From Tetmemena sp. SeJ-2015 (taxonomy: Eukaryota > Ciliophora > Spirotrichea > Sporadotrichida > Oxytrichidae), in NCBI GenBank assembly GCA_027382625.1, contig JAJKFJ010021767.1, forward strand, positions 124,001 to 188,000: DNA of 64,000 bases, written 5' to 3'. Both the position numbers and the translations under genes were made by a program. Under the pieces are notes generated by a model. It was not told the DNA's origin and did no database searches. It saw only the letters and a program-made list of their open reading frames with translations. Shown here piece by piece: positions 1-64,000 of this stretch (position 1 is its first letter; every line of letters starts with the position of its first letter).

Positions 1-1320
1 TAAGAACATTGGCAATGGACAAACTGAAATTGAGGAACAGATCAAAGATCTGAGAGAACTCCAGGCCGATGGGGATGAAGACGAAGACATGGAAGATGTT
101 CAAGAGGATGGAAGCGATGAAGAAGAGATGCAGAGAATCATCAAGGAAAGCAAGGTCTACGAAGATGAGGAAGAGGAAGATGAGGATGATGAGGAGATGG
201 AAGAAGATGATGAAGAAGAGGGCGAAGACGAAGAAATGGAAGAGGATGACGATAGTGATGAGGGAGAGAAGAAGGGCAAGAGTGGCAAGCAATCTCTCAA
301 GCAGAGAATCAAGGAGGAGCAGGAAATAAGAAAGAAGGAACTCCAACTCAAGGACAACAAGGTGCAGCCCAAGTCCATCGAGGACTTTGAGCGTCTGCTG
401 GTGTCCAACAAGGACCAGAGTTATGTGTGGATTCAGTACATCGCTTTCATGATTGATAAGCTTGGCATTGAATCAGCCAGGAAGGTAGCAGAGAGAGCTG
501 TGAAGAGTGTTTCAATCTCTAACGAGGAGGATAAGTACAACTTGTGGGTTGCATACATGAATCTGGAAAACAAGTTTGGAACTCAAACTACCCTTGAGAA
601 AGTCATCAAGAGAGCCCTTGAGGTAAACGACAGAAAGAAGATCTACTTGCAACTCATTGGAATTTACCAATCATCTGAGAAGTACCAATACATTTCACAG
701 AATTACTTAATAAGAATTTTATTAGAACAATAATGCATTTAATGATTGAAGACATTTACAAGTCACTCTGCAAGAAATTCAACGACTACTATAACATATG
801 GGCTGGCTACCTAGAGTTCCTATTCAACGTGAGGGAAATGAAGAAGGACAAGTCCAACTTCCTAGTAAAGGAGCTTACTTTCACTGACCCCAAGCAGGCT
901 CTTCAGAGAGCTCTATAATCCCTCCCAAAGAAGGAGCATGTGAACCTCATCAGTAAGTTTGGCCAGCTGGAGTTTAAGCATGGACAGCCAGAGAGCGGGC
1001 GCACCATGTTCGAGGGAATCGTGAGCAACTACCCCAAGCGCATGGACATCTGGGCTGTTTACATGGACATGGAGGCTAAGTACTGCGGCGACAACAAACA
1101 ACAGGCTCGTCACCTCTTCGAGCGCTGTTTAGTGGATCCCTTGATAGCCAAGAAGCCCAAGAAGATGAAGCTGGTGTTCTAGAAGTATATGGAGTTCGAG
1201 ACCAACCACGGATCCAAGAAGAACGTAGACAAGCTGAGAGAGCGTGTGGAGAGCTACTTGGAGACTGCCTTCACTAAGACCAACAAGTCCGACGACGAGT
1301 CTGGCTCAGATGCTGAATGA
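1..1320 (+). CDS. RRP5: RRP5/PDCD11-like rRNA-processing factor, C-terminal part
   Basis: Only the 3' end of the gene lies in the window; the frame is open from base 2. It starts with a long acidic Glu/Asp tract (about bases 90-270), as in the linker before the TPR/HAT repeats of Rrp5. HAT-like repeats follow, with the family-typical run YPKRMDIWAVYMDMEAK, then ARHLFERCLVDPL and a C-terminal region ending in TGA at 1318-1320. Rrp5 is a nucleolar factor needed for early pre-rRNA cleavages of both subunits. The frame breaks near 700-745. Either a 44-nt GT...AG intron (682-725) or a 32-bp TTAAT-flanked IES restores it; the IES version keeps the SEKYQ motif that aligns with SEKFQ of animal PDCD11. 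TAG at about 1182 reads as Gln inside conserved sequence. Identity is fairly sure from the repeats and end sequence. Confidence 0.85.
707..743 (+). other. Candidate IES in RRP5, pointer TTAAT
   Basis: TTAAT at 707-711 and 739-743 are in the same codon phase; removing 32 bp joins the two frames and keeps SEKYQ before the next HAT helix. A GT...AG intron at 682-725 would also restore the frame, and an ACATTT repeat at 690/752 is a third solution. The choice is therefore open. Confidence 0.45.
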
Positions 1321-1461
1321 TGATACTGTGGTAAAGCTGACTATAAATATATAAGGCCTTAATTAAAACAATTCTAAGTTCTTTTAACTTTTTTAATTCT
1401 AATTAAATAGTAGTGCATTCAAAAGTAAGATGAGATTATTATAATAATAGAAAAGGATAAA

Positions 1462-2043
1462 ATGAATAATCAGTAGATGAGATTGGTAGCGCTTGCACTC
1501 TCTGCGTGTGTGCTATTCATTGGCCAAGCACAGGCAGTGCCCGACTATACCAACTGCCTTAACTGCTTCTATACAAACAGAACTAACGCTTACTTCTGCC
1601 AACAGAACTCACAATCTGTAATTTAAAAACAATTAAGCCTTCACAAATATAAGTAATTTAAATGCCTCCCTTTGAACAGTCCTTCCTGTACTAAAACTTA
1701 GCAAGTACTTAAGAACTACTAGTGCGTGGAGGGTTTCGCAGACTGCACCAATGTGACCTTCGTTAGCTCCTCAATCGGCACCAATCAAAACACTGGCTAT
1801 GGACTGCTCCCCGGATACGGCTGCTACATTAAAATTGACAGAGCTGAGGATGGAAGCTATGGCACTCTGGCTGTCTAGTTCGACGATCCTTCAGTGTTAG
1901 TGTTCGACTAATATAACACTAAGTATGTCAGTGGATAGCAACTAGGCCTTGTGCTTTCTGACATCGGCTGGAGTCCTCGCACAGTCTTCATTGTAAACAC
2001 TGGTACTCAACCAATTGGATTCACTGATAATAATTATTAGTGA
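1462..2043 (+). CDS. Small secreted Cys-rich protein, unrecognised
   Basis: ATG at 1462 is followed by an N-terminal signal peptide (about residues 6-25: hydrophobic run ending ...GQAQA) and then a mature part with regularly placed cysteines (CLNC near residues 32-35, then C, PSC, YQC, DC, GC). The frame is open to TGA 2041-2043, reading TAA/TAG as Gln. A 36-nt GT...AG segment (1618-1653) may be an in-frame intron: it is AT-rich, splits a hydrophilic stretch, and its donor GTAATTTAAA repeats just after the acceptor. No family is recognised. It is probably an exported or surface protein; function unknown. It lies 141 bp after RRP5 and 281 bp before the dynactin gene, all on the same strand. 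Confidence 0.7.
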
Positions 2044-2324
2044 ATATTTGTACACTGCTGTTTATTCCCACTCTTTGAAATTTGTAGCAAGCATTTTTGG
2101 AATTGCTATGCTCGTAGTTGCCTCCATCCTATTCTGATTCAAATTATCATCTTACCTTAAATAACTATCAACCTTAAAACAAGTTTCATAAAAATTATCG
2201 ATTCAACTTCTCCCTCTTTACTTTTAAGGAATGAGTTTAATGTCCTTATCCATTTTATACATTTCGACGGATTCTTTCGTGAGTTGGATTTCGATAGGAG
2301 AAAAGATGAGTGTATAATAATAAG

Positions 2325-5300
2325 ATGTCAGCCTAAATTCAAATAGGTTAGCGCGTACTCATAAGTTCCTTCAAGTACAAGGGACAAGAGGGAGTAGTTA
2401 AGTTCTTCGGCGAAGTCGACGATAAATTTGGAATGTGGGTCGGAGTAGAGTTAGATGTAAGTAAAAGGCAAGTTAAGCTAACCCTGCTTGTAGCTACCTA
2501 AGGGAGATATGGATGGCACCGTGAATGGAGTGGTGCTCTTTGAATGCAGACCGGGAAGTGGCCTTCTGCTGAGACAAACCCAAGTAAAGCCTATTGAAGG
2601 TGGAGGAGGAGTAGCTCCTACTCAGTTTGCAGTAAGTAGTGATGCCACTTAGTTATATCTATAGGTGCCTAGTTTGAACATAGGTGGAGCAGCTCCTTAC
2701 AAAGATATGAGTGACTCTCCGCTGCTAACTCCAAAAGATCCACCTGGATCTAATCAAGGACTCAGATAGATGCAAGGAGTCATGTAAGGAATGATGAAAC
2801 AAGCTAGCTAGGCAGATGATGGCCAAGCTGAGGGAGGCTCTAATCCAGCCGAGTCTAAGACATCGAGTTGGAAAGACAGACTTGAAAAGCTGAGAAAACA
2901 GAAGGAGTTAAAGAAGCTGCAAGATGAAGAGATAAAAGCTCATGCTACTTACAACGAAGAGGCCAAGAAAGAGCAGGAAGATCTCAAAAGAGTTTTCGAA
3001 CCCACTCAGGGAATCCAAAGAGACAGAGATGGAAAGATCACAGTTCAACAATAGGAGGCTGCTCCAACCACCACACTGCTACTAAGCCAACGACAACTGC
3101 ATCTGCTGCAGCGGCTAAGAGAACTACTGCAAGTAATACTCTTAATACGAGCACAATGAGTGGGAGGTAGTCTGCAAGGCCTCAATCCAAAGAACCTCTA
3201 GGTAGATCCCGATCAAAAGATCCCTATAATCAAAGGAAGGACAACAAGTCAAGATCAAAGGATCCTGCTGCTAGAGATACCTCAGCAAGTAAGGAGGAGA
3301 AGAAGAGCACTCTGGCTTAAAGAGTAGGCACAGGTCTTAAGGGGCCTACTGGCCTCTAGTCTAGACTTGCAGGCCAAGAGCGAGTGCTGCAACCGGAGTT
3401 GGAGCGGGAACTAAAACCCAGACTTCAGCTGCTGAGGCTGCAAGAGAAAAGATCATGAAAAAGAATGAGGAGGTGAGACAAAAACTGGGTAGCAGATAGT
3501 CAGATGCACTTAATACAACGACTTCTTCGACTACAGGTTCAAAATTAGGTGCTACATAAAAGACAGCAGGAACTGCAGCTGCAACTGGGGCTGAGAAGAC
3601 ACGAGTTTCCATGGCAACTGGAGTTAAAAGAATGGCACAAAGGGAAGGCCTTGCTATTATAGACGGCAGTGTGTCTACTCCAACCCCACTACTACAAAGG
3701 CTGGGCCTGCTGCTAATAGGCCTATGACTGCTAGATAGTCAAACAAGAAGAGTTTAAATCTGACCCAGTAAAGACAACTGCAAACGCTAGAGCTTCAAAC
3801 CTGAAGACAGCAACTTCTAGAGAGAGGTCAGCAATGAAAAACAGACTTGGTGAGAAGACAAAGAGCTAGGCCGAGGACAACTATGCTACTAAATCTAGTG
3901 CTGTAGATGATGATGAAGAGAGAAAGCATAAATCATTATATAATTGAATAAAGGCAGCACCAACTCAGGTTACTGGCAGAACATCAGTCATGCCAGGTTA
4001 AAGAACCGCTCTCTCCAAGGCAACTGCTGTTTCTAAATAGTCCTCAACCAATGTTGATTCTCAATAGCCAGACTAGTCTCCAGGTTCAGGCGGTATGTTC
4101 TCAGGAATCCCTATGGCTGAGTTCAAAAAGCAAGAGGCTGAGCTTAGGAAAACTAAAGAGGAAGCCTTTGCTTTACAAATCGAAGTAAAGGAGCTCAGTG
4201 AAAAACTAACTGAGCTGCAGCGTGACCATCAAGACAAGCTTGAGGAGTTGAAAACCGACTATGAGATCAAGATCCTAGAGTTAGAAGCCAAACTTGGAGA
4301 CAATTTGTTGCTGCAAAACATGGAAATCGAGCATAATGCGCAGAAGCAAAAGCTCTAAGAAGAATTTGCCTAGAGAGAAGCAGCTCTTAAACAAGATATT
4401 GAAGCTGCAAAACAGGAAAGAGATGCTGCAATATAGAGAGCTAACGATTAGGCAAAGCTTGTCAAGCACGCTGAAGAGGAAAAAGCGAGAGTTCAAGAAG
4501 AGCTTGAGTCAAAGATATTTGCATCTTTCTTTATACTGGACTTAGAAACAATCCAACTGGAAATTGACGCACTTAAGGACGAGAAGGAAGAACTGCTGAC
4601 TCAACTACGCGCTTCTAGTGATATCCAAAATGACTCATCCTCTCTTTCAGGTTTTAACTGAAGACGAGCTAAAGAGTTAAAACACTAAGCTGAGACAAGC
4701 TATTTCTGCTCTTACAATGGGCTTTGAAGTGGAGAAGTCAAGATTCACCTCCAAGATTTCTGATCTGGAGAAGAGAGCAAGACTTGTTGAAGACTACGAG
4801 AAGAAGCTTGAGGACATGGATTTGCTTCTTGAAGAAATTGAGATCAAGGATTAGGAAATCAAAGCAATGGAGGAAAAGCTCGATGAGTAGAGTGACTTCG
4901 AGAAGATGGTGGAGGAGATGGCGAGGAGATCCTTAAGAAGGAAGAGGACATCGAGGTACTTTAGGCTAGAGTGACTGAGCTGGAGGAGCTGAACGCTGTG
5001 CAAGAGGAGTTGAATGAGAATCAAGAGCAGTACGTGAAGGAGTTGAACGAGGAGATCGCGAACAGAGATGCCCAGATTTTCAACATGGAGCAGAACGCTA
5101 TCTAGTTGGAGGAGATGGTGCTGGAGCAGGACCAGAAAGCCAGCAAGTACAAGGAGAGATGCAACGAGCTGTAGCAGAAGTCAACCATGCTCTAGGAGGA
5201 GTTGTCATCAGCCTACTCTGCTGGAGACTAGAAGGTGAAGATCTCTACTCTGATTGAGAAGCAGAACATGCTGATCACCAAGCTGAGAGAAGCAGGCAAG

Positions 5301-7676
5301 AAGGACATGGAGATCATGGTCTAGAAGATCGAGTTCTGGCAGGAGAAGCTCAAGATGAAGGTCATCGAGGGCTTCATCCCCAAGAGACTCGTCGAAGAGA
5401 CTAGACTTGACTCTACGAATAAAAAATAATAATTTTCATTAAAATGATTATAATTATTGACTCTCTGGAGAAGATACAGATGCTCAACAAGACCAAGAAC
5501 AAGGCATTGCTGTTGACGAGAGAGATCTGTGAGAAGCAAGTAAACAACATCGAAAGCATTTTCGAAGACTAGCTCTAGCAAGCAGCATACTCACGACTGC
5601 TGATTTCCATATGCGAGCAGTGCGCCAAGTTCATCGACTGCAGCCAGAGGATCATGTACGTTGTTCAGAAGCTGCCTGTCGAAAGATACTCTGAACTCAC
5701 CAAACTCATGGCCTGGAACAAACTGGAACTCATCAATTAGTATATTGACAAGATCATGGAGCTCTTGAAGGAGGAGTCGCTCACTTACAAATTCGATATC
5801 TCTCCATTCTCAGCTCAAGTCAAGTCCCTCCAGGATCTTTTAATTAGTAATACTTCAAACTTTAATCTACAAGCCACCGCAGAAGCTAAGTATGTTGAAA
5901 AGACTCTTTCAGAAATTGAGGAGGAGAAAGAAGAAGGCTACTCTCAGACCAATACCTTGAGTATCGCTTAGTAGGAGAGACAGAAGGACTTGAAGATAAT
6001 TCCAAAGCTACAGTTGAGAAATGAGTGCCTCAAGATGAGCATAGGAGTGATGGCGCTCTCTATTTTCTCTAGTTCCTCTCGCCAGGAAGAAACCACTTCA
6101 AAGTGCAAGTTGATCTACTGGAGATTACTTGAGATAATTTTCAAGCTGGATGGAATTGATCCTCACATAAGTTTAAATGGCTTTATATCCCTTTGAAAAC
6201 GGCAGTGAGTTCATAAACTTGCAAGAGTTGTTTACAGACAGTAGACTTGAGCAAAAATACCAAGCGATGAGACTGCTCTGGGATAGAGAACCCCAATCAG
6301 CTGAGTTAGAACCACAGGAAAGGGATTGGAGTTCAGTCTTAGAAGCAATTGAAAGAGACATCACTCAGCTAAACAATGACTTCAAATTTAAGAAACTGCT
6401 CTCTAAGGTCGAGGAAGAGTACAAAGAGTCTCAGCTTCAGATAGATGATATCTATGCTAAGGGATGGGATGCCAAGGGTCCCTGGACACTCATTGTAGAG
6501 AAGATTAGACAAGACCTTGAAGACACTGGAGCTATGAAGGAGAGAATTGAATAGCTGCAAACTAAAGTCAAGGACTAATCTATGCAGTACCTCATCATAA
6601 AGCGAGAGAAGGATGACTTGCAAATGGTCAATTTATCTCTAGAGACGAGGCTTGGTGATGCCTAAAGCAAGGCTGAAAAAGTGCCCGCTCTAGAAATGGA
6701 AAAGAAGCGACTCATTGAAAAAGAGCAATACTACGGACAATAGATGGAGCTAGCAAAGAAGGAGATAGACATGCTCAGAGAAAAGGAAAAAGAGCTTCAG
6801 ACTAAGCTTACCGATATGGAGAATAACCCTCAGTTCATGTCAAGGGATAGTATGAGAGCCAGCACTAAGAAGATGGGTGGACTCCCTTCAACAACCAACG
6901 CCCAATCTAGACAGTCTAGAACTTCTCAGTACTTCTAAAAGCTAGCCTAGTCTTCACTACTTGGAAAGAGAGACTCAACTGCTCCTATGTCCAGACAAAC
7001 TACCTCAGTCAGCTCGAATGAATTGCAGAAGCAGCTGCAGATATCCGAAGAAGCTTTCAACAACATCATAATTGAGTTGCAGAAGGATAGGATGATGCTG
7101 AGAGGACAACACTTGCTTGAGAGACTCCATAAGTTGGAGAAAGAAGAGTGCCCTATGAATGAGTATATCAAGCAGCAAAGGGAGAGAAGAGAAGTTGCTG
7201 GTAAGCTTACAAGAGATGAGTAGGGCAAACTAGAGAGTGCTCTAGATAACGTGATGTACCTGAAGAAGAAGATAAAGAAGGAGATGGCTCTCGTGAGAGT
7301 GATCGACATCACCAAGCGTGAAGAGTAGCAAAAGGAGGCTGAGAAGAAGCTTCTTAAGGACATAGTTCCAGAGGGCAAGGAGAAGATCAACTATGAAATT
7401 CTCAAGGCCAAGGACTAGGTCAATGAAGCCTTCAAGGTTTTATTTGCCAAGGACAGTAAGCTCCATTAGGTGCAAGGTATTTCAATAGGGTAGCACCTTA
7501 AAATCGACAAAGTTGGCCACTAGAATGTGGATCAAGTGCTTAGCTCCTAAAACTCCATCAGACTGGGTACTCTCAGACTGAACGCTCTTGCCAACGGCCC
7601 TTAGATAAAGAGCGTGATTAACTTAGTTCCTTCACAAGCTAAGGAACTCAAGTCTCATTTGACTCTCCTCTAGTGA
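2325..7676 (+). CDS. DCTN1: Dynactin p150(Glued)-like subunit
   Basis: The protein begins with a CAP-Gly domain (about residues 7-80). Its GKNDG-type groove is replaced by a variant PKGDMDGTVNGV, and the GLLLRQTQVKP end of the domain is clear. Next come a basic Ser/Thr/Ala-rich linker (to about 4.05 kb), a long coiled coil, a globular part (about 5.4-6.2 kb), and further coiled coil to TGA 7674-7676. This order matches p150, which links dynein to microtubules and cargo. Introns: 2457-2493 (37 nt, certain) and probably 2632-2664. A 50-bp IES sits at 5407-5464. The frame must shift one base near 3080, 3370, 3690, 3760, 4650, 4920 and 6175; most look like assembly indels. The exact sequence of the linker is therefore uncertain. 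Confidence 0.82.
5407..5464 (+). other. IES in dynactin gene, pointer TTGACTCT (50 bp)
   Basis: An 8-bp direct repeat TTGACTCT flanks an almost pure A/T insert with no GT...AG borders. The insert carries an in-frame TGA. Excising 50 bp joins EETRLDS to LEKIQML without a frame change. This is one of the cleanest examples in the window. Confidence 0.9.
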
Positions 7677-7869
7677 TCCAAGCATCCTAGTAGAGAGTCA
7701 GTCATCATTCACTCTTCAAAGAAGATCTTACTTCACAAAGTGGAGTGAATGAGTTACTCTTCAATTTATGATTCAACTCAAATGTTCAACCTCCTTTTTA
7801 TTTCTTAATCTTGAGTTTATTTTTGAATAAATATTGTCATATTATAATATTAATTGAGAGTTAATCGAA

Positions 7870-10050
7870 ATGGCTAAGAGACATACTGAGAGAGATCTTT
7901 CGGGAGTGTAAATCGACCACTCTCTTCAAGACTTCCAAAAAGGTAGGTGTTTATTGTCATCTCAAATACTTCTTCCCTAATAAATTGAGGACTTATAATT
8001 TTCTCTTTAGGACATGAATACATCATGACATTCATACGTATTATACTTATTACATTTAAATACTATCATTCTTGATATTGATGCTAATTTATAATTTGAT
8101 TCAAGGACAGCAGTGTGATCGTGGACAACGAAGATGAGTACGAGGGAGACGTGCTTGAAAATCAGGAGCTACAGAGTTCTTTCCGCCAGCGCATGAAACT
8201 CAAGAAGCAGTCTGAGGCTGCAGGCGGCTACAACTCTAACAACCTTACTACTGGAAAGCGCAACATCCTCCCTCAGTATGACGAAGAAGACGATGAGGTG
8301 GTTGCTAAGAGGAACAACAGAATCGTCCTCGCCACAAATAGAGCAGGCGAGGATGCTCTCGATGATGGACTCTCTGCTCTCACTAAGGAACAGAGATTCA
8401 CACAACATCATGCGAATAATTATAACAGTATGCATATTATTATAGATTGCAGGAGCTGAGAGAGAAACTGAGTGGCAAGTCAAAGCAGAAAGTCTCACTC
8501 GAAGTTTCCAAGGTAGGTTCACCCCACTTGATTTTATTCTAAAACACCTGACTATCATAGAACATAGGCTCAGATTACGCCACAACCACAGCTTCCACTC
8601 CTGGAGACCACCTTCCAACCGCAGCTGGAGTCAGCTTCAGAAAGAACAAGTAGTAATCTTCTATCCTGAAAAAGAGACTGACTGCTTTCTAAGAGGAAGA
8701 GCTTGACATAGTAGTACAGCTTGAGAGAGAAAGAGAAAGAGCCATGGAGGGAAGGATTGGCGGGGGATTAGCAGATACAGGACTCGGCACTCGAGAACAG
8801 AAGCAGCTCCAACTTGACTAAGAAAGGTAAGAGAGCATTTCACTTAATTTGGCATTATTCAAACTTTCATTTGCTCTTAAATATTTGGGGAATTGAGGAG
8901 ATACAAGTTACTATTTTAGAAAATTATAGGAGGAAGAGTAGGAGTCAAGGCAGAGGAACTTCACCAAAGCCATCAATGCCAACAAGAGAGTGAAGTATGG
9001 GAGCGCAAAAGAAACCAAGCCAGTTGAAGAAGCAATGGAAGATATTAGCAGCCTGTTGAATGAGGAGGATGAATATGCGCTATTGCAAAACCAACTTGAG
9101 AAACAGAGATTGAAACAAGGCAAGGCTAAAACTACTTAGCTCAAGGGTGAAGACTTCATCAAGCAAACTTTATTGGCCAATGGAGAAAACAAAGGAGAGA
9201 CATCAATTAGAGATAACTAGGAGAATTTACCTCAATCTAGCTAAAGATGATGAGGTTGAGTTGCTCACTAGCTAGAACTAATACCAGCAAGGTTTGAATG
9301 TAGAGAGAATCACTAGCATAAAAGGATATTCCCATGAGCAGTATGCCTCCTCCTGATCTCGTGCGAAATCATGGAAATCAGAGCATGCCTGCAACTGGTT
9401 ACCAGTCACTTGCAAATGCCAAGTCAGGCTATACAAGTGTAGTGAATGTTACTCTTCCTTCTCAAAGAGTCAAGGACATAGCCAAGTTAAATGAGTCTCG
9501 TAATCCCTATGAAAGAGTAGCTGAAGAAGAGAAATCCTTGGACTAGTCAGCTTAGTCTGCAAAGGTATAAAAATCTGAAGAGCTAGTTAAAGACCCAGCC
9601 CTAGAATCCATGGAGGAGCGACTTTGTGGCAAGGGGATAGGAAGCGCCTTGTAGATATTCAGAGAGCGAGGCATGCTTGGCTAGAATAAGTTCTTTGGCA
9701 GGAACAAGGACGAGACTTCAGAGAAGATTTTGAAATCCTTTGGTGACGATAGCAACTAAGAAAATGACAGAGTGAAGTTGGTTCACACTGACAAGAGAGG
9801 CAGACAACTTACTTAGAAGGAGGCATTCAGATAGTTGTGTTGGAGGTTCCATGGCATCATGCCCAGCCACAATAAGTAGCAGAAGCGCCAAGCCAAAGAT
9901 GAGATGGAGGGCAAGCTTAACTAAATCAGTTTAGGCCTAAACCCTCAAGCAAAAGTCCCCACCCTCAACAAAGTTATTGGCAATCTTGGTAAGCTGGGAG
10001 CAAAGCCAAATTCAAATGGAGCTGCCAATAAAAAGCCAAAGAAAATTTGA
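7870..10050 (+). CDS. SART1: SART1/Snu66 tri-snRNP splicing factor
   Basis: The N-terminus (GVQIDHSLQDF... then DVLEN) matches the conserved start block of the SART-1 family. The C-terminus matches the family signature: VKLVHTDKRGRQLT, then KEAFRQLCWRFHGI, then a Lys-rich end. The middle is acidic/basic and coiled. SART1 is a component of the U4/U6.U5 tri-snRNP in the nucleus. TGA is at 10048-10050. The gene has an intron at about 7943-8010, an intron at 8513-8560 (48 nt), and IESs at 8009-8109, 8394-8448 and probably 8829-8938. Single-base frame shifts are needed near 7937 (an A5 run), 9243 and 9300. Start chosen at the only ATG before the conserved block, 193 bp after the dynactin stop. Confidence 0.85.
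8009..8109 (+). other. Candidate IES at a splice acceptor in SART1, pointer AGGACA (95 bp)
   Basis: AGGACA occurs at 8009-8014 and 8104-8109 around an AT-rich stretch. The first copy contains the AG of the intron ending TTTCTCTTTAG. After excision the same acceptor is followed directly by the coding GACAGC. A single 163-nt intron ending at 8105 is the alternative, but introns here are usually under 60 nt. Confidence 0.5.
8394..8448 (+). other. IES in SART1, pointer AGATT (50 bp)
   Basis: AGATT repeats flank an AT-rich insert that ends the reading frame. Excising 50 bp gives KEQRLQELREKLSGK in one frame. The borders are not GT...AG. Confidence 0.85.
8829..8938 (+). other. Candidate IES in SART1, pointer AAGAG (105 bp)
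   Basis: AAGAG at 8829-8833 and 8934-8938 flanks AT-rich sequence with an in-frame TGA. Excision gives a continuous frame (ERQEQESRQRN). A 103-nt GT...AG intron (8827-8929) also fits visually, but it leaves the wrong frame unless a base is missing. Confidence 0.5.
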
Positions 10051-10320
10051 ACTGAGATTCAAGTCTTTAAAATTAATTCATCTAACAAGTTTGAGAACAA
10101 TTTAGAAATATGTCTATTGATTGATTGAGTGCTTATTCTGTTTTGGGACAGAATTTTATGAAAGACTGTAAGAATTAATATTATAATAAATCGACTTAGA
10201 TTGAAGCAATGAAAAAGCTTAAACGTGAAATTAATGTCCTCTCTAGCAACTGTAATAACACTTTCTTCTTTTTCTAAAGATTTTGATTTAGTCGCAGATG
10301 ATTTCGACACTTTGCTGAAG

Positions 10321-15419
<5,099 letters not shown>

Positions 15420-15719
15420 CAAGCAAGCTCTTGATTGAAAATTAATTTAAAAGCATAACAACAAAGTACATAGATAGTGTTTATAATTTTTGTCTAAAAT
15501 ATATAAAGTGCTTCCTTCTCATTTTCAATAAATTGAAGCAACGTCATATTTAGCAGTAAGAGGAGCCGGAGAGAAATGAAAACTTAGTAAAGGTACAACA
15601 AATCTTCAATATAAGGAATTAATAGGAATGGAGCAAACTTGATCAAACAAAGAATCTCAAGTCTACTATTCTCAAAGGGTAAATATAGATCTTTATAGCA
15701 TAATTTCTAACTCGGAGAG
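15420..15719. other. Spacer between convergent kinase and SIN3 genes
   Basis: AT-rich to about 15540. From 15545 to 15670 one + frame is open (Q/N/E-rich, ends ...NLKSTILKG) and could be a remnant or an extra 3' segment of the kinase gene, but no join was found that reaches it. Confidence 0.4.
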
Positions 15720-34040: not shown

Positions 34041-34049
34041 TAGGCTTCT

Positions 34050-37880: not shown

Positions 37881-37899
37881 ATCGTGCCCTAAAAAGTTA

Positions 37900-42552: not shown

Positions 42553-42833
42553 TTCTTTTAATTATTTTCCTTAATATAGTCACAATCTATTCAAGAATAG
42601 AAGATTCTATATCCAAGTACTTCTTTCTTTCCCAAATAGAATATGATATATTAGTCGATATAATCAATATTTTAAAGTATATCTTCTGTATTTTAAGATC
42701 TCTATTTCACCTTATTTAATAAATGATGATATCTTGGGAATATTATAAATCACTTTAAAGTTATATTTTAGAAAATTATAACAAAGAGCTAACTTATTAA
42801 AGCTTATTAAACATGATTCAGTGGTTTTATTCA

Positions 42834-48200: not shown

Positions 48201-50055
48201 CCTCTCTATCATAATTTATCACTAAAAATTTGGATATATAAAAAATTATTTTGATAGATATCTATTATCAAGTATTGATAAATACCAGGATTTTTGTAAA
48301 ATAATTTTGACCATTATAAGGAACTTGAATACCTTTATTTTATCATAAATGAAGCTCTCCACAAAGCATAAGAAAATTTAAGCTAATCTCTGATGAGAGA
48401 ACAAGAGCCAACACCCTAAGTGCAAGAACAATCTATGACTTATAAAGGAGCAGCAGATATCTTAAATATAGATGAGATCAAAATAATTACAGAGAATTAA
48501 GCCACAAAGAACAAGAGCTAAATTATCCCATAAATCTTAGACGACATAAGTCCAGAGGAGAAACTATCCATGATCAAGGAAGTGTTTCTCAAACCTCTAA
48601 TAGAAGCTGTAAACAAGAGAATAGATGATATTGAGAAAATCAAAAAGAAGAGATACACTTGGAACAAGATAAAGAAGGAGCAGCAAATTTAAAAGTATCA
48701 AGAGTAAAAGTCAAAGTGGAGGTATTAAGAACCTGAGGTTTCAATTAGAACAAAGCTAAACGCAGTATTTGAGGAGTTTGAGCAAGGTAGTGATCTTAAT
48801 GAATAGAAATCTAAGTCGGAGGAAACAAAAAAAGCCAGTAGCTATTCCGCTCCAGTGACTCTTGCTATTCAGTAATGCATACAGCATGTAGTGAGAGATC
48901 AGTTTAAGCTTATCAACAAATGCTTGATCCATCTTATGTTTAGACGCCTTCGTCTTTACAGGCATCTTGAAGCTCTTAAGCAATTCTACTTCTGCTATCA
49001 AGGGGATATAATCTCCCTCTTTATGGATAGTCTATTTCAAGAAGACTATCAATCCACAGTCAAAGAGAACTCTTTGAGCTATATTAACAACTAATTCGAA
49101 CTAGCTATAAAGCTAAGCCATCCTGAGTAATTTGAGAGTTAGTCAAAGTTATCTGAGTTAGGAGGGCCAGGTATAGGAGGATTTAACTCTCTTCATCTGA
49201 GCAGCAATTTTGAATTCAGAGCAATCGATCCTATGGCTTAGCAAAGCAACCAATAGTACTAATTCCTGACTGTCTTCAATGTAATAATCCTTTTGCTTAT
49301 TTGTTGATATAGATGCAAGAAAGCATTAAGCTAGTTTTCAAAAGAAAATACCCACTAGACTTAGTGATAAGTGACTCGTGCCTAGAAAAGTACAACACCA
49401 TCTTCTTCTTTATCGTGAAGCTGAAACGAGTGAATCAGATTTTGTGCTAGCTTTGGAAGTATCTCAGTACCTCTGAATTCAGAGTAAGATTATACTTATT
49501 CCTTTTTAAGATTGTGATAGAAACTGCCTTTCCAAGATTACTGTAAGGTGAGGAAGCTGCAGCTCTTGAGAAACAAGATGTATCACTTCACTCACATGCT
49601 TGAGCAATATGCACTTACTGAAGTAATTGAAGCGGCTTGGCAGACTTTCAAGCGCTCCCTTCCTAATCAAACTGTCTTTGAAGACTTAGTTCGACTGCAC
49701 AACGACTTCTTAGACCAAATTATGGTTAAGTGCTTCATAGACAAGAAGGAACATAAGATCATGGGCCAAATTACTAAACTCTATACCTTTGTCTTGCAAT
49801 TCTTTAGAAATAAAATTGCTTGTTAATCTATTCAACAAGGTAGTGAGGGAGAATGGCGCTGAGATAGTGCACTCCGAGGAAGCGATGAACGAGATAGATA
49901 TCATATCTATGTCTTTTGAGAGATACACCTTCTACCTCTATCAGTTAGTTAAGATGCTGGCCTCAAAGGGCTCTTACAAAGAATTATTCCTTCTCTTGGA
50001 TTTCAACAAGTTCTATGACAAGGGCAGTAATAGAAACTTCGGATAGAATGATTGA
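45296..50055 (+). CDS. GCP6-like gamma-tubulin complex component
   Basis: The N-terminal third has the GCP GRIP1 pattern: LREFTDFLS..., YNQIENVAQEV, LLSYLYRIL and FNGDFEDPYNEFFIEKL. A long charged coiled-coil insertion follows (about 47.5-48.2 kb), rich in Glu/Lys/Arg. The GRIP2 part then ends with LKLVFKRKYPLDLVI, IVKLKRVNQIL and MLEQYALTEVIEAAW plus FEDLVRLHNDFLDQIMVKCF. A large insertion between the two GRIP domains is the mark of GCP6. It would act in the gamma-tubulin ring complex that nucleates microtubules at basal bodies. Start ATG 45296 gives an open N-terminus. Frame breaks near 45.56, 45.86, 46.37, 47.34, 48.2-48.4, 49.28 and 49.79 kb are introns, IESs or indels, mostly unresolved. 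Stop TGA is at 50053-50055. Confidence 0.78.
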
Positions 50056-50197
50056 TTCTTGCCTTGTGAATGCTTAATCTGAGTTTAAAATATCTATGAG
50101 TTTTAGAATTGCTAATAAAGTTTTGTGCTAATTGTTCAGTTGTTAATTTAATAAGTTTGAAATTTGAAGCCTTAATCAATAATTTATTAAGCATTTA

Positions 50198-51913
50198 ATG
50201 AGTGCCACTTCGCAAGCCAACCCACAAATCACTGTGAATGTCCAATCCCTGCTGGAGGAGTTGAGCTAGCCCTAAGTTGAAAAAGCGGCAGAAGCTGAGA
50301 GCTCTGTCAAGCATAAGATAGACTTGAACATTCGAATCACCCTTCATTAAAATTGTCCATGAGTGCATTGTCAAAAGTAAGATCCTTCGGAAAATATTTA
50401 CTCCTCTCCCTCTTACTTGATTTTATAAGTAAATGCAATTAATTATCTCAAGAGATATGTTTTGTATTTATACATGGTTGATTCTGATGATTTCTTTAAG
50501 CGTTCAAGAGCCATAAGAAGTACATCGAGAAGGAGACAAATTTAGTCGTCACCAAGATAAATGCCCTGAAGAAGCAAGGCTCCTCCAAAGGGGCACAAAG
50601 TGTGATTGACACCATTGACTAACTCATCTCAAAGCTTTCTCAACTTAAATCCAAAGTAAGTTCCACTCCCTTTCAAGAGCAGATATTCATTCTTCTATTT
50701 CAGTACAACAAGATGCTGGAGGCTGAAGATTACTTGTTCTCAGTGCTCAAAAAAAGGCTGAAGCACTTAGAACACATGAACTAAAACCAGGCTAATCAGG
50801 AAGTCATGAAGGACTACTTTTCAAAGCGACTTAACAGAATAATTATTGACTACCTCTTGAGGGAGAACTATTTTGACTCTGCTGAGGCCTTTATTGTAGA
50901 GACTGGCTTGAAGGTAAGTATTATTCTTGTATGTGTGGTTTACAAATCCTTGTAGGATTATGCTGACGTAGAGGTGTTTGAAGAAGACGAGCAAGATCAT
51001 TCAAAAGTTGAAGCAGAGAGACTGCTCTGAAGCACTCTCGTGGTGTAACACTCACAAGACCAAGCTCTAAAAGACTAATGTAAGATAAAGAAAAGAGTGA
51101 GAGAGGGATGTTAATCTTCTTGTGTTAGAGTTAATTGGAGTTCAGACTGAGGATACAAGAGTTCATGCAGTATGTGATGACCAACGACAGAGCCAAGGCA
51201 ATTGAGTACGCAAGAAAGCAGCTGACTAAGTTTGGCGATGACTAGCAGATGCTCTCAGTGATTCAGCAGATCATGGTGTTCCTCATGCTAAGAAATGAGC
51301 AGAAGGATAAATTTGGCCAGTATAAGGTATCATTTGCTTCAGAAGGGTTTTATTTCATTTTTAGGACTTCTCTGATGACAAAAAGTGGGCGGAGATAGAG
51401 GAACTCTTCCTTAAGGAAAGCTATAATCTGTTCTCTCTGCCTGAGAAACCCATCATTAGCCAAACTCTCCAGACTGGAATCCCACTCATCAAGACTTATA
51501 AATTACAAATTTTTAGATCACAATTAAAATTTACCTTGCTTTAAAGAATTAACTTTAACATTTTAAAAAATATAAATTGATCTATAAAGTGTTCATTTAA
51601 ATATATAAAATAAGACTGAGTTCTGCTCTCACAATGAAAATAAGACCGAGAACTGCCCTACTTGCAATCCCCAGATTAAGATTCTGGGCTAGAAGCTTCC
51701 AGCCTCCCACCAAACCTAAACCAGCATGTCTTGTGCAGTGACTGGAGAAGTCATGAATCATCTGAATCAACCCTACTTCATCCCCAGCGGGCATATCGTA
51801 AGCGACAAAGCCCTCAAACTTATTAAAGACCCTAAAAATCAAAATAGATAGTTTGTCCCTTCACTAAGAAAACTTACGAGGTATCTCAGCTTTAGAAAGT
51901 CTACTTCTCATGA
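50198..51913 (+). CDS. MAEA: MAEA/GID9-like CTLH E3 ubiquitin ligase subunit
   Basis: The helical start is HKKYIEKETNLVV. The LisH block is LNRIIIDYLLRENYFDSAEAFI, and the CTLH/CRA block is DCSEALSWCNTHKTKLQ, then LEFRLRIQEFMQYVM. Beyond an IES comes the degenerate RING: CSHNENKTENCPTC, then MSCAVTGEVMN, then FVCPFTKKTYEV and a KVYFS end, like the KVYIM end of animal MAEA. The protein is the catalytic partner in the GID/CTLH complex. Introns occur at about 50637-50703, 50914-50954, 51082-51130 and 51326-51363. The IES at 51491-51617 is needed to reach the RING. An insertion at 50.35-50.49 kb and one missing base near 50.99 kb are unresolved. Stop TGA is at 51911-51913. Confidence 0.85.
51491..51617 (+). 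other. IES separating CRA and RING of MAEA, pointer AAGACT (121 bp)
   Basis: AAGACT at 51491-51496 and 51612-51617 flanks a very AT-rich insert. Excision of 121 bp joins GIPLIK to TEFCSHNENK in frame, placing the RING-like domain exactly as in animal MAEA. Confidence 0.87.
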
Positions 51914-52182
51914 TGAGGATAGTATTTTTAACTTATCTTTTTTTTGAGGTAGACTAGTAGTATCAACTCTCATATAACAATAAACAAACATAAAATTGCT
52001 CAAATGAAGCTGATAATATTGAATTTGCTAAAACTTAAACTTTCTTTTCTCTTAATTCCTTCAGTATGATCATCCATTGATGCTATAAATTAGGTAAATC
52101 AATCAAGGTTGAGGAATATTTAAACTCGGCTGCTCTTTTCTTGATCTTTTAAAGTTTTAAATTAAAACCACTAAGAATCGCT

Positions 52183-52939
52183 ATGTATAATCCAGAAAAA
52201 AAGCAGCCGTGGGTAAAGTACCAAGCCAACGACCCTAATGGATTCACAGTGATAGAGCGATCCTCCGATGAGTATAAGTAATTCATAGTCAGAATAGAGA
52301 AGAACTACAACGGCAGTAACAAAATGTCAGCGTGTACCTTGTGCTGGGGCCTTATTCAGTCACTATAGAAGAAACGACATGCAGAGCATGAACCATTCAT
52401 GGTGACAGCTCACTTCTTCAAGAACGAGGAATCCTTTCTGCAGTTGTGTCTACAGCATGGGAAGATCTCAGGCAACAGACAGAGTGTAATCATCTTCAGA
52501 AATACAGTACAATTCATGGGCACTCCTGGCTACGACCCCACAGGCGGCACAACATTCATTCTCTGGAGGAGATAATCCTCTAATCAGCTTGAAGGAGATC
52601 TTAAAGAAGTCACACGAGCATGAAGTCTTTAACTGAAAAGACTTGAATACCAGCTTCACATAGGTCAGAGATGATCTTAAAACTTAGGACACAAAGATAG
52701 AGAAGATGGAAACACAGATCAAGATACTTTACTAACAGGTTCTTCAATTCGCGAGAGAGAGGATTCATGACTAAAGAGGGAAAATCCTAACTAGTAACAA
52801 GAGAATGAGCACAGTAGCAATTTAGAAGGAGTATCCAACCCAGAAGAGTAGCTATTCGAATGATGATGGACTTTAATTTCTAAGTAGTTGGATTGGAGAT
52901 GATGATGATTAGAGTTTTAATTAGGAAATAAAACATTGA
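52183..52939 (+). CDS. Unrecognised protein with C-terminal coiled coil
   Basis: ATG 52183 opens a frame of about 145 codons (KKQPWVKYQANDPNGF..., then ACTLCWGLIQSL, then FMGTPGYDPTGGTTF). A one-base shift near 52570 is then needed to follow SLKEILKKSHEHEV. After another shift a helical segment (KIEKMETQIKILYQQVLQF) and an acidic end (IGDDDDQSFNQ) run to TGA 52937-52939. No family is recognised. It converges with the next gene at a distance of only 33 bp between stop codons. Confidence 0.55.
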
Positions 52940-52972
52940 GAGAGAATGTATTTTTATCTTTTGGCTTCTTCT

Positions 52973-55900
52973 TCATATGTCATTTCTAAATTAGTATCTT
53001 TAGCATTTCTCTGCGTTAGGCAGCTGCTGCATCAACTTGATGACATTTATATCTGCCAGACCAAATCTTTCCGGTCCACTGACAGTCACAGTAGATCTTT
53101 TATTTCCCTGTAGTTCGTTAATCTTCTTACAGATGTCGATCTATTGGGAATTAAAGCTGTCTATAAATTCTTACCCAACAACTTATATAAGCAATAAAAC
53201 TATAATTATAAAACCAGTGGAGGAATCTCTAGTGATGGAGTTTTCAGGATCATCCATTGGCGTTACTCTGTACTGTGGTTTCTGACCTCCATCTAAGATC
53301 TCGCAAATGTAGTAGCACCTCTGCCCAGGATTACGCTGACTGTTGTGCTCTCTTTGACTTTTGAAGCCAATGGGGAAGAGGTTCTTCTCTGTGTGGTACT
53401 GACTTCTCTTCATACTCGATCTCTCCCAAATCCAAAATTTACAGAGAGCTGTTGATTGGGATAGGATAGGAGATGTTCCCTACACGTAAGCAATTTAGAT
53501 GAAACAATAGCAACAACATATCAGCAAGCTGATTTTTACAAATTAAGAAGGAGTTAAAAAGTAATTTATAATTTCTTAGACATTTATAGAAGTAATAGAT
53601 ACCCTTAAATTATTGCTGTATGATTAAATTCAAATCTAAAAGAAAATTAATGAAGTAAAATATTAGGCAATAATTATCTTCTAGTGAATCTTAACTATCT
53701 TACCTTGCTCATCTCTCAGCATCTGAACCTTGGCTACCTTCTTCTTTGGCTCAGCAAATTAGTTGTTTGGCAAAGCCATTTATTGCATTTGATTATCTCC
53801 AAGCATGCCTTCCATATTGGCTTTAGTGGATTAATTTGCACCTATTTAACCAGATACAGACTGTTGACCAGACAACATCATCGAGTTGCTCTTATCAACT
53901 TGCTGTGCCAACTGTCCTTAATTAACTATGGGCTACTCCTTCTTAGGTTTCTTGCCTGGCTTTGACTGCTGTTGAAAGTCCTTATAGAACTCACAGATTT
54001 CCTCAACTCTCTTGAAAGCCAAGTCGTATTCAATCTGAATATCCTCAAAGCCGAGTTCATTATTGTCAGAGATGGTCTTCAGAGCTTCAAAACCTGCGTC
54101 ATTTACAATACTCAGTAGGGCTCTATCGTGCTTTCCACACTCCCAACCTTCTGGAAGCAGCTTAGCTAATTTGCTTTACTAGTTCTCCTCATCTACTTCC
54201 ATAGCATCATCTTATAATCGCTGCTCTTAATCTCTATCTTTATTAAACTGCTCTTGTAGAGCTTCTAATCCAGTATCAAACTATTTTGCATTTCCAATCA
54301 TCAAATTTATGGGATATCATCATATGGAAATAGGCTTCAAATTATATTATTTAAAAACCTTTAAAAAACTTTTAAAATAGGAATCTTAGCAAAGAAATTG
54401 CAATTGTAAGGAAATATCTTAAATTTATAAGCCCCTTAATTTTTCCTGATGAACTGCAGAATATTCATGTTCTTGTGGAGTATGGTGGCCTTTTCAAATC
54501 CAAAATCGAATCCATCGTCATCAGGGTCAAAACTGAATATCTTTAGCTTGTTCGACAGCTAGAAGTTATTCTGATTCTACTACTCATCTCCTTGCTTCTT
54601 CTCCTCTTGCTTAAATTCCTCTTCCAGCATCTATCCTTCACCCTCTATCCTATCGCATTTTCTAACTCATTAGAGATCTAGTTGTCTGGCTGGTTTTAGC
54701 CTAATGAGTTTGGATAATCTACTGAGATATCATTCTAAGCCTCTGGATGAATCTCTCTAAGTTTTAGGCCATGTTTCTGTCTTGGTCTTTGTTTTAGTCG
54801 TCTATAGCTGTCAGCTGCATGTTCGTGGTGTCTGCCATGGCTGTATCCTACTTCCCTTAGTCATCCTCGACTATGTTAGCAATTGGTGGTGCTTTCTCAA
54901 CTTAACCCTCGGGGTTTTAGCCGTCTCCAGGTTTTTGAAGTTTGCCCCTAATGAAGCCATAGTCATTCTTGCCTTCAGAGTTTATGGGCACTCCCATGTT
55001 TACCAGTATCTCATAAATAAGGTTCTTCTCCTCTAGAGTAAACCCTGTGGGCTCTTAAGCATTCATAGCCTTCTCAAAGTTTAGTCCTTGCTGATACTCA
55101 CTCTTTCCTATGATCTGCACTAATTTCTTAAGTCTCCTGGTGATGTTGTCTGCGTTGGGGAATTCCTAGTATTACTCCCTCTACTTATTCACTCCTGTGG
55201 AAACTTAAGTTCTTGTCGTTCCTCATCGCCTAGTACATAGCATATCCGTACTTGTATGTACCATAGAGCAAGTCGATATCATGCCTTAGGGTCCACCAAA
55301 CAGAGGGGCGCTGACCATAAAATACTGAAGCTGGCAAGAAATTCAGAAGATTATCCCAGGTCTCGTAATCTCTCTTTACCTGTGGGTCTTGATCTAACTC
55401 TGTTTTAGTCAGGTAGGACTTCTTTTCAGTCTTATACATCTCGATTAGCCCCTTAACTCTGAACAGTAGCTGAATTCTCTTAACCCAAGGAGCCGCCCTC
55501 TGTTGAATCTACTCTCCCCATTCCTCTAAAATGGCTTTACCCAATCATCTAAAACTTACTTGGCTAACTTTACACAAATGGATCCTCAGGTCTCTCATCA
55601 ATGAGGTTGATAAGGAAGTTTTTCATTCCATCTTTTTCATTCTGCACATACTCAAATAGAGTTCTTATGAAGTCATTGGCAAAAGCCTTGAGCTCAGTGT
55701 CTGATTTGTCTTTGAGTATCTTATCGTGGCTCTTGCTGTACTTCCTGATCTTATTCCATCTGCCATAGCCAAACTGGAGAAGGTACTTCTTGAGAGTTTC
55801 TTTCTCCATGCTTCCCCATTTGGCTTAGAGAGCTTTGTCTGGGATCTTTTTCATCATGTGCCCTATTTTCTCATCCAGACTTAATCTATTCGCATTTGAG

Positions 55901-56724: not shown

Positions 56725-58660
56725 ATGATTGTATCTACTGATTATGTTTTCGATTCTGGGAAGGGAACGAGTATGTTCTCCAAGAATGGAAGACTGACGA
56801 ACTTCTAATAAATGCAAATGGAATATAGAATTCAACATTCTAATATTTTTTTGCGTTAGTTTATAAGGTATTCACAGACCCTCCCGATGACAAAGCCAAG
56901 TAAGCTCGAGAAAGGGAGAAGAGCCAAAGAAGAGAAGAGTTAAAGATGGGAGGAGTCACATCTCTAGAAGAGGAAACTTTGACCGGTTACAATGAGTTCC
57001 TGCCTTTGATAATGTAGTAAGCCAAAAATAAGCAGAGCTATCTGGAGAAGCTCAGGAATCAACAGAAAACACAAACTACCAACCCTAAGTAAGCTAAGAA
57101 TGGAGATGGTGAAGATCCAAAAGAGAGAGTCGTTATTATTATATATATATATTTTTCAAAAGAGGAAGAAGAGAAGGAGGAACTTCCCCAAAGCCAGGAC
57201 AAGCCTTTTGAGGGCTCCTTCATATTTAAAACCATAGGCAGAAATAAATCTATAATCACTTAAAAATACTATGGGGCATAAGACAGTCCAGACCCTGCAC
57301 ACTATCGCCCAGTTTTTTCTTCAGTAGAAAAGAACTTACCTGCATTGAAATTCAAAAACGGTCAAGACCATAAGGCAAGAGAAAAGAGACTTAGAGTTCC
57401 AGATTGTGTGGGACTCAATTATACTTATTATACTTTTAAAGCATGATCTCAACATTAATTTTTGGATTAGTATGTTTAATGATAGTGTGCTTCATAAATA
57501 TTTATTATAGGCCCTGCTCTCTAGACATTCGCTAAGCTCTTAAGAAAATGGGAGGACTGAATCTCACCCTCGACAAGCAAAGATCTTCAGAGATCGAGGA
57601 ACTTTATGGGACTAGAGAGTTGCGATTAAAGGCTAAGAATGCTCAAGAAAGCACGAAATTACAGAAATTTGGAATAAGCAATTTACATTTCGAGTCCTAC
57701 TTGAACAGGAACACTGATGAATTTCTCATTAACACCATTCCACACGATAAGAGATTTGAGGTGCCTTAGTTTGACGTAGGAATACTTTCTTAAAACCCTT
57801 AAACTGGAATACCATTACTTACTAAAAGCAGTCCTAGAGGAGAACTTTTTTAACTCAAGGAAACTTAGCCCTCCTATGATTCCAAACTGGATATTGTGAA
57901 GAACAATACCAAGGTTGGGCTGCTAGACTTTGGGAAAATTACTAGCAGAAAACCAGTTGAAAATTTAAAACCATTCACTGTCCCAGAGGGATATGAGTTT
58001 TCACAAATTGAGAAAGCTTTTACTCTCCTCAGTGATTATAAAAAACCTAAGTTAGTTCCTAGTATAGAGAAAAGCTACCCAAGGGACAACTCGATGTACA
58101 ACTTGAAAAATTAATTTTTACATTTTACTATTCATCAGAGGCAAAGGAAGACATGAAGAAGCAGGCACTTAAAAGGGATTTTTCATTTTGCAGCTACCTC
58201 CCAAACAGCATAGCAAAGACTGAACAAACAAATCTTAACTCTTCCTTCGCTTCTACTGCCCATTCTCTCCTTCATCAAAGGTCGCGATAACTCTCCATCA
58301 GCAACTTCAGAAGCATTTAAAGGATTCTTCAAAAAACTTCTCGCAAAGATCTTAATTAGTCTTTTCATTAGTTATAAAATTTTAACTTACTAGTCTTTGC
58401 TGCAAACTTTGAATCGATCTAGAGCTCAGGATAACTCTAGTGTGATCTCAGGAACAGGCTCAGTGGCTTATGGAATGAGCTAGTAGCAATACACCGAAAG
58501 AGACTTGAGCTAATTAGAAAGAGTAGGCGGGTCTTTCCTGGTAATAGATCACAAAAAGAAGAAGCTAGTTGACTTGAGCACTATAAACATGACTTCAAGG
58601 GAGCAAATCACAGGTGAAAGAAGCAATTCAACTATAAACTATGATAAAAAGTTTCTATGA
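56725..58660 (+). CDS. Ciliate protein of PG-repeat/axoneme-like appearance, unassigned
   Basis: ATG 56725 opens ...VFDSGKGTSMFSKNGRLTNF. After an IES comes VYKVFTDPPDDKAKQ, a helical Lys/Gln/Glu-rich part, SPDPAHYRPVFSSVEKN and CVGLNYTYY. The later exons give LDIRQALKKMGGLNLTL, PHDKRFEVPQFDVGIL and VPEGYEFSQIEKAF. Short Pro-Gly/Pro-Asp spaced motifs of this style occur in axonemal microtubule-associated proteins, but no named family is recognised. Two IESs are marked. Further insertions lie at about 57.45-57.51 kb and 58.11-58.39 kb. Stop TGA is at 58658-58660. Confidence 0.6.
56803..56844 (+). other. IES, pointer TTCTAAT (35 bp)
   Basis: TTCTAAT at 56803-56809 and 56838-56844. Excision of 35 bp joins RLTNFQ to YFFALVYKVFTDPPDD in frame; the unexcised frame ends soon after. 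Confidence 0.8.
57119..57164 (+). other. IES, pointer AAAAGAG (39 bp, frame-neutral)
   Basis: AAAAGAG at 57119-57125 and 57158-57164 around a TA-simple insert. The insert is 39 bp and open, coding an isolated hydrophobic run (VVIIIYIYF) in a highly charged helix. Excision gives DPKEEEEKEELPQ. Confidence 0.8.
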
Positions 58661-62864: not shown

Positions 62865-62909
62865 AACGAATTTAGATTTGACAGAAGGAGATTTATTTTA
62901 ACAATTAGT

Positions 62910-63615
62910 ATTTTTAGACTCTTCTCTTTTAACTGAGATGAGTATTCTTTATTTGGCAAGAAAGTTTCTTACAACTTTGCATATAAATTTTAGTCTTTGG
63001 CATTGAATTGATAGACCTTATTGTTAGCTGAATAAGAGGTAGAGTAGTCATTCTCATATATAGGGTTCCAGTCAAAGAACAAGTGCTGAATTGGGCAGTC
63101 TATTTTCAAATTTAATTTCACTCCAATATACTTACTTTCTTGCGATAGGTAGTCGATTAAAGAAGAAAACTGGGAGTGAGTAAAGCCGTTATTGCTAAAC
63201 CTATATAAAATGGTGAGCATCCAATAAACTTTCGTTAGTCTTACTTCAAAGTGTGAATATTAGGAGATGTGCTGAGTGCAAGGAACATAACTTTCATTGA
63301 GCTCTTATCTAGTCTGTGCTTGAAAATGTTGATTGTATTTAACTCAGCATGCTTCTATTCCTCAACTGGTGGGGCAAGATTTGCTTGAGAGTCCACGGCT
63401 TTCCCTTCTTCACTTTAACTGTAGACGGCAGGCTTCAAAGCTGGATGCACCTTGATGCCAAACATAGATAAAACATATAATGGAGATATATATTCACTCA
63501 TCCTACAGAGAGTCTCCACGTCTTCATAAAATTTGCCCACTGGCTTATACGCTTTCATATCAACGCCTTCAGTCTCAGCGTTTTCGTTTTCTTTGAAGGT
63601 CCAAATTTTCTACAT
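62910..63615 (-). CDS. Leucine-rich-repeat protein (3' end unclear)
   Basis: ATG 63615-63613 opens MQKIWTFKENENAETEG..., then LYVLSMFGIKVHPALKP. LRR-like turns follow: VMFLALSTSPNIHTLKF, then SNNGFTHSQFSSLIDYL, then PIQHLFFDWNPI. Two introns, about 63213-63257 and 63110-63144, both GT...AG, join these blocks in frame. After NNKVYQFNAKDQ the frame stays open towards 62910 and overlaps the end of the neighbouring gene, so the true stop or a further intron is unresolved. LRRs mediate protein-protein contacts. It is divergent from the next gene with a 50-bp gap. Confidence 0.6.
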
Positions 63616-63665
63616 CTTAACTTCCAACTAATAATTTATAATTTAGAATTTATATTAAAATTAAA
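63616..63665. promoter_or_regulatory. 50-bp shared upstream region of divergent LRR genes
   Basis: AT-rich gap between two start codons on opposite strands; it must hold both transcription starts or be crossed by both. No defined promoter motif is known. Confidence 0.4.
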
Positions 63666-64000
63666 ATGTCAAACCAGGCCTTCTCCAAGGATTCCCAAAA
63701 CCCATACAGAACTGGTGTTCTTGTTGGAAAATAATTCAAAATTATCCATACCCATAGTTAAATAGAAATCTTAAACTTTCTTGATTAAATTGGTTTAGAC
63801 TATCTCAAAATCACAGACTGTAAGTGCTTTTCTTAAGAGCATCAAACATCACAGACGAGGATGTGAAGCAAATGGCACATGCACTAAGCCAGATCCTGCT
63901 TACCCAGGCCAAGCTAATAAGAGTCTAAAGGTGCTAGATTTATCTTACAACCCTATTTCAAAGAAGTGCTTGAAGTTCCTGGCTGACGCTATGGAGACTA
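63666..64000 (+). CDS. Leucine-rich-repeat protein, 5' part
   Basis: ATG 63666 opens MSNQAFSKDSQNPYRTG, then a block (GLDYLKIT), a small intron (about 63821-63855), ITDEDVKQMAHALSQ and SLKVLDLSYNPISKKCLKF. The last two are ribonuclease-inhibitor-type LRR units. A one-base shift is needed between them near 63890. Truncated by the window edge. Confidence 0.65.

Follow-up and report, generated by a model that had tools for sequence, protein, structure and literature searches.

Repeat-bounded inserts in 64 kb of probable micronuclear DNA from a hypotrich ciliate

We analysed a 64-kb stretch of ciliate DNA (the window; positions 124001-188000 of contig C2838, in an assembly of 146.2 Mb and 5213 contigs) in which short AT-rich inserts, flanked by short direct repeats, interrupt genes on both strands. 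The window is very probably micronuclear DNA of an oxytrichid hypotrich, and the inserts are very probably internal eliminated sequences (IESs), which separate macronuclear-destined segments and are bounded by direct repeats of variable length and sequence (pointers). Excision of the insert with one repeat restores the reading frame at 17 of 17 curated sites, and at 11 of these a solved homologue aligns across the joint.

The accessible text of a study of related hypotrichs (PMC9797194) places pointers where one segment stops and the following one begins, with one copy retained and the shortest measuring 2 bp, and has template RNAs program the joining of segments. We infer that this mechanism applies to the window. 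After sex, the developing macronucleus would cut out each IES together with one copy of its pointer and rejoin the flanking DNA, which would restore the reading frame ahead of transcription. By analogy with Oxytricha, the choice of segments would be RNA-guided, the DNA would be cut at the pointers and exactly the segments listed below would be lost from somatic DNA.

Results

A preliminary description, made from the letters of the window, had named seven inserts. All seven have direct repeats at the places it gave (TTGACTCT, AGATT, CATTTTAA, GATAGA, TTCTTTCTCTT, AAGACT and TTCTAATA, in order of position), and its coordinates agree with ours except at one end, since the last repeat of the 56803 site finishes at 56845 and not 56844. 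To these we added sites at 692, 8030, 17311, 18110 and 18356, three in a copine gene and two in the gene of a gamma-tubulin complex component, which gives a curated set of 17; the direct repeat was itself used in choosing them. Around each site we also sought cuts with GT-AG ends that keep the frame open, up to 40 nt upstream or 30-40 nt downstream (GT-AG alternatives below). The sites are as follows.

692-747, plus strand: IES in the Rrp5 C-terminal gene, pointer ATT, 53 bp excised; gap-free alignment with yeast Rrp5 (E 1.5e-62); the GT-AG alternative inserts 3 extra residues.
5407-5464, plus strand: IES in a CAP-Gly (dynactin p150-like) gene, pointer TTGACTCT, 50 bp; the insert holds an in-frame TGA and its excision restores the frame; no Pfam match spans the joint.
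8030-8103, plus strand: IES in the SART1 gene, pointer ATTCA, 69 bp; 'imtfkdssv' aligned to 'iltlkdkgv'; no GT-AG alternative nearby.
8394-8448, plus strand: IES in the SART1 gene, pointer AGATT, 50 bp; homologue across the joint, with a 4-residue alignment gap ending a few residues upstream; GT-AG alternatives exist.
15196-15299, plus strand: IES after a kinase domain, pointer CATTTTAA, 96 bp; the insert holds two in-frame TGA and its excision restores the frame; no homologue spans the joint, and there is one GT-AG alternative.
16207-16248, minus strand: IES in a Sin3-like gene, minus-strand pointer TCTATC, 36 bp; in-frame TGA in the insert, frame restored; joint beyond the reach of the homologue alignments, two GT-AG alternatives.
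17311-17365, minus strand: possible, weak IES in the Sin3-like gene, pointer TAC, 52 bp; frame only, nine GT-AG alternatives.
18110-18132, minus strand: IES in the Sin3-like gene, pointer ACAT, 19 bp; homologue aligned, with gaps that end some six residues short of the joint; no GT-AG alternative nearby.
18227-18266, minus strand: IES in the Sin3-like gene, minus-strand pointer AAGAGAAAGAA, 29 bp; 'eekekftfdd' aligned to 'edqekfrldd'; no GT-AG alternative nearby.
18356-18506, minus strand: IES inside the Sin3_corepress domain, pointer ATAT, 147 bp; domain completed on excision.
43858-43898, minus strand: IES in the copine gene, pointer GAGATAA, 34 bp; homologue across the joint, 2-residue gap directly before the pointer; a 31-bp GT-AG cut yields one residue more.
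43956-44017, minus strand: IES in the copine gene, pointer TAATA, 57 bp; gap-free alignment; GT-AG alternatives add or remove residues.
44523-44553, minus strand: IES in the copine C2 domain, pointer ATGT, 27 bp, in frame; C2 score rises from 39.6 to 63.9 bits.
48207-48348, plus strand: IES in the gamma-tubulin complex component gene, pointer TATCATAA, 134 bp; open frame joined; no homologue at the joint and no GT-AG alternative nearby.
49799-49833, plus strand: IES in the GCP_C_terminal domain, pointer ATTC, 31 bp; homologue across the joint, 1-residue gap one residue downstream; GT-AG alternatives lose aligned residues.
51491-51617, plus strand: IES in the MAEA gene, pointer AAGACT, 121 bp; 'iktefcshne' aligned to 'iktpqcyked' (homologue E 3.9e-58); no GT-AG alternative nearby.
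56803-56845, plus strand: possible IES, pointer TTCTAATA, 35 bp; frame restored.

The last of these is ambiguous and the weakest of the seven inserts named first: eight AT-rich codons remain unsupported after excision on the 8-bp repeat, a larger cut on a 2-bp pointer is, by eye, equally open, and GT-AG alternatives are also possible.

The repeats flanking the 17 inserts are 3-11 bp long, two of them only 3 bp, so of the earlier range of 4-11 bp the variability and the upper end stand and the lower end does not. The inserts are AT-rich, at 14-28% GC across the set and 16-26% for the seven named first (repeats included), compared with 33-43% for most 1-kb steps of the window. Excision of the insert and one repeat joined the open frames at each of those seven; with the insert retained, an in-frame TGA falls inside it at 5407, 15196, 16207 and 18227, and the frame shifts at 8394, 51491 and 56803. 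The further claim that a known domain is restored held at three of the seven (8394 in SART1, 18227 in Sin3 and 51491 in MAEA), where a homologue crosses the joint, and the other four have the frame alone.

The 11 joints placed by homology (Rrp5, one; SART1, two; Sin3, three; copine, three; gamma-tubulin complex component, one; MAEA, one) lie in six genes that make up a small share of the window, and 8 of them have no alignment gap within about four residues. The other six sites (5407, 15196, 16207, 17311, 48207 and 56803) are supported by frame only. Homologue matches range from modest for SART1 (E 1.3e-6) through fair for the gamma-tubulin complex component (E 3.4e-23) and Sin3 (E 1.3e-30) to strong for MAEA, Rrp5 and copine (E 3.6e-71 for copine). 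Excision at 18356 jointly with two others raises the Sin3_corepress match from 47.4 to 64.5 bits and extends it from profile positions 2-72 to 2-98 of 98. The pointers are diverse in sequence and not TA only; nine of the 16 in our list, from which CATAAGA of a dropped site (below) was removed and which does not hold TAC, contain ANT. Segment order is linear in the six genes followed with a homologue (Rrp5, SART1, Sin3, copine, gamma-tubulin complex component and MAEA), and we saw no scrambling in them.

Genes encoding TEBP-beta and TEBP-alpha, classical micronuclear examples in Sterkiella (Oxytricha) nova, tie the assembly to this lineage. TEBP-beta is identical to PDB 2i0q_B at 384 of 385 residues once three features of the germline copy are set aside, namely a single surplus base, a GT-AG intron and, close to the start codon, an insert with the repeat GTCCA (all by eye); the known protein is without the insert. 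TEBP-alpha, at C3416, is scrambled, with mid-protein pieces preceding the N-terminal piece on the same strand. These pieces closely match PDB 1jb7_A, and the displaced ones were recognised by eye in its sequence; phmmer left them unaligned. We take 2i0q_B and 1jb7_A to be Sterkiella nova proteins, and by these sequence matches the species is most likely S. nova or a close relative.

The same two proteins bear on the genetic code. TAA and TAG had been read as Gln throughout. For TAG this is fixed by a Gln of the solved TEBP-alpha, while for TAA it derives from open frames only; TGA terminates TEBP-beta at its known C terminus. In long TGA-free frames, not all of which need be genes, TAA and TAG together account for 654 of 13,862 codons. 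The germline of another, non-oxytrichid spirotrich would also fit diverse pointers and Gln at TAA and TAG, both of which Halteria and Strombidium have according to the accessible part of PMC10901763, but the match of TEBP-beta to 2i0q_B and the closeness of the TEBP-alpha pieces to 1jb7_A make such an origin highly improbable.

Further traces of germline organization lie elsewhere in the assembly. Contigs C298 and C1815 represent a single locus as two haplotypes (95-96% alike), and an insertion of about 6.5 kb occurs only in C1815 (from about 29965; in L045 from about 3855); its near end bears C4A4 repeats, and it looks like a telomere-bearing element. Contigs C982, C1161 and C3843 begin with an end related to it. 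IES-like inserts also occupy the same places in both haplotypes (L027 for C298, about 279-325 and 518-540; L044/L045 for C1815), and their content has diverged beyond that of the flanks, both by eye. Nine contigs (C298, C586, C672, C739, C770, C1030, C1301, C4311 and C4966) start with an exact 20-nt C4A4C4A4C4, the length of a hypotrich somatic telomere, and no telomere was found at their opposite ends. C298 was considered as a clean somatic chromosome and rejected, as it keeps IES-like inserts at places that match C1815 by eye. A long internal G4T4 array at C2828:3804-4160 (L042) is perhaps a germline telomere or a repeat cluster.

Repeats at the boundaries exceed chance expectation in several comparisons. 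The joints placed by homology, 11 in all, give a combined p of 2e-5 and have boundary repeats that average 5.3 bp, compared with 1.2 bp (range 0-3) for ten GT-AG introns in the window. When the boundaries of 33 gaps are permuted, repeats of 6 bp or longer reach p=0.010. Ab initio calling with the true repeats returned 18, 52 and 43 calls in three settings, where the means of 17 offset controls per setting were 11.7, 44.2 and 32.8 and their maxima 14, 50 and 40; the score with the true repeats lies above every control in all three. Single calls were not used as evidence because the calling is too permissive.

A number of results weigh against the IES reading. Unguided calling beats its controls only modestly, and with a leave-one-out margin of at least 2 the 22 calls (control mean 13.7) fall inside the control range of 5-23. 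In the permutation on 33 gaps the mean repeat gives p=0.16. The combined p at the 11 joints becomes 0.003 when the 11-bp site is removed, and four pointers of 4 bp and one of 3 bp are individually unremarkable (p 0.28-0.69). Cuts were placed with the repeat in view; the null permits slack, and the placement is not independent. Searches with 4900-10900, 15000-20900, 20001-24000, 42500-48000 and 48000-54000 found no near-identical second or somatic copy, returning only the segment itself and weak relatives; the remaining window was covered only by 20-kb searches, which failed to list the window itself and thus cannot show absence. These searches thus brought to light no somatic counterpart of the genes in the window, so that macronuclear absence of the inserts stays an expectation. 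The species name depends on two proteins and on the source organism of their PDB entries. A frame-keeping GT-AG alternative with other ends lies near 12 of the 17 sites, and one starting with GTA near 7 of these 12, so individual sites are possibly introns.

An eighteenth candidate, 50312-50518 in the MAEA gene, also counts against the reading. It had a 7-bp repeat (CATAAGA) and its excision restored the frame, and it was dropped as two homologues favour an intron at 50355-50500. The solved MAEA match scores 200.4 bits with the intron and 196.1 with the excision of 50312-50518, and a homologue from a protein database search with MAEA (4 proteins, 29-37% identity) retains the residues which that excision removes. 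The 7-bp repeat and restored frame thus arose by chance, which shows that chance repeat pairs pass easily; chance repeats are described as abundant in ciliate genes in the accessible text of PMC1805493. Dropping the site took the curated set from 18 to 17, the homology-placed joints from 12 to 11 and the combined p from 2e-6 to 2e-5. The feature is now placed as follows.

50355-50500, plus strand: GT-AG intron in the MAEA gene; replaces the repeat-bounded candidate 50312-50518.

This outcome and the alternatives at 12 sites speak for reading the inserts as spliceosomal introns removed from RNA, as do GT-AG introns of like size and AT content in the same genes and, in the accessible text of PMC1805493, repeats at some spirotrich introns and a proposed interconversion of introns and IESs. 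We nevertheless consider this very unlikely for the inserts as a class. None of the 17 exact excisions can be rotated within its repeat to GT-AG ends, and five sites (8030, 18110, 18227, 48207 and 51491) have no frame-keeping GT-AG alternative nearby; of these, 18227 and 51491 are spanned by homologues. Where homology places the joint, most alternative cuts add or drop residues that the homologue aligns; at 43858 the two cuts differ by one residue and either may be right. The ten introns carry boundary repeats of 0-3 bp. A minority of the curated sites may be introns or have slightly different ends. A spirotrich germline with variable-pointer IESs, as the preliminary description proposed, is still the best reading of the homologues across the joints, the lack of GT-AG ends in exact excisions and the TEBP genes.

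It is barely conceivable that the genes are decaying pseudogenes or the inserts assembly artefacts. One-base frame breaks in TEBP-beta (relative to the known protein) and in MAEA would suit that idea, as would the direct switches of frame seen in the CAP-Gly gene (introns account for some of these). However, every insert is exactly repeat-bounded, removal yields full domains (copine becomes uninterrupted over 568 residues and the gamma-tubulin complex component matches 309 of 309 profile positions), and the one-base indels form a class separate from the inserts. One-base frame breaks without an insert occur in the window at about 3068, 3405, 4922, 51010 and 51840 and near 2100 of L059; they are probably leftover assembly errors.

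The preliminary description had put the number of IESs at over 20. Our curated sites number 17, and a total above 20 was not demonstrated case by case; it is extrapolated, as unguided calling exceeds its controls only modestly. More than 20 IESs in the 64 kb are likely, because the 11 homology-placed joints sit in six genes covering a small part of the window.

Other features of the window

One intergenic spacer holds a repeat that recurs in the assembly.

28324-29153, no strand assigned: dispersed repeat, GC-rich in its core and bounded by inverted repeats.

A first look gave 1017 candidate copies, among which 39 were scored at 82-89% identity. Six fetched copies have inverted-repeat ends AGGACTTCCAGAGGA, and their flanks diverge past the right end. 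The core at 28672-28966 is 60% GC. The window copy has about 118 bp that the six lack, set between 13-bp repeats that are nearly identical (around 28412-28555). We tentatively suggest, as a possibility we rate as somewhat doubtful, that this is an undescribed dispersed germline element of the Sterkiella nova-like species, with a core of about 600 bp (partly 60% GC), inverted-repeat ends of about 28 bp, a linked left block and dozens to perhaps a thousand copies. It would be eliminated in development, and the window copy would carry an insertion of about 118 bp or an IES inside a germline-limited repeat.

The longest run without coding signal is 36749-38961 (2.2 kb), where GC drops to 24%. Rfam and tRNA scans of the window gave no matches. 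With Pfam, 13 of 20 exon pieces had no family at threshold, and 2 of the 7 matches lay under their cut-off.

Discussion

The system and mechanism described here have been known for decades and are not new. Like the inserts of the window, the nonscrambled IESs of Oxytricha trifallax and Tetmemena are genic, have short variable direct repeats and leave one copy behind, and these genomes have telomere-bearing germline elements, as far as the accessible text of PMC9797194 goes. The insertion in C1815, which may be such an element, begins with C4A4 repeats and sits outside the window. The loci and species differ, and our sites come from protein homology rather than from macronuclear mapping.

Another known parallel is that of the micronuclear TEBP genes of Sterkiella (Oxytricha) nova, given that this assembly has a TEBP-beta with an IES and a TEBP-alpha out of order, although the window holds other genes and the six we followed are linear. 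The IESs of Euplotes vannus and Paramecium are also repeat-bounded germline inserts that are removed, but their pointers are mostly TA in the accessible parts of PMC9797194 and PMC10901763, whereas those of the window are diverse. No paper on the germline genome of Sterkiella or Oxytricha nova turned up in a partial coverage of the literature in which the window genes were not sought by name.

The dispersed element at 28324-29153 is the sole feature here that might be undescribed. The controls also reveal a limit, in that short direct repeats are so frequent that a 7-bp pair which restores the frame can be due to chance. Within that limit, threading solved homologues through repeat-bounded inserts makes it possible to identify hypotrich germline DNA, and to locate many of the segments it loses, without recourse to a somatic genome.

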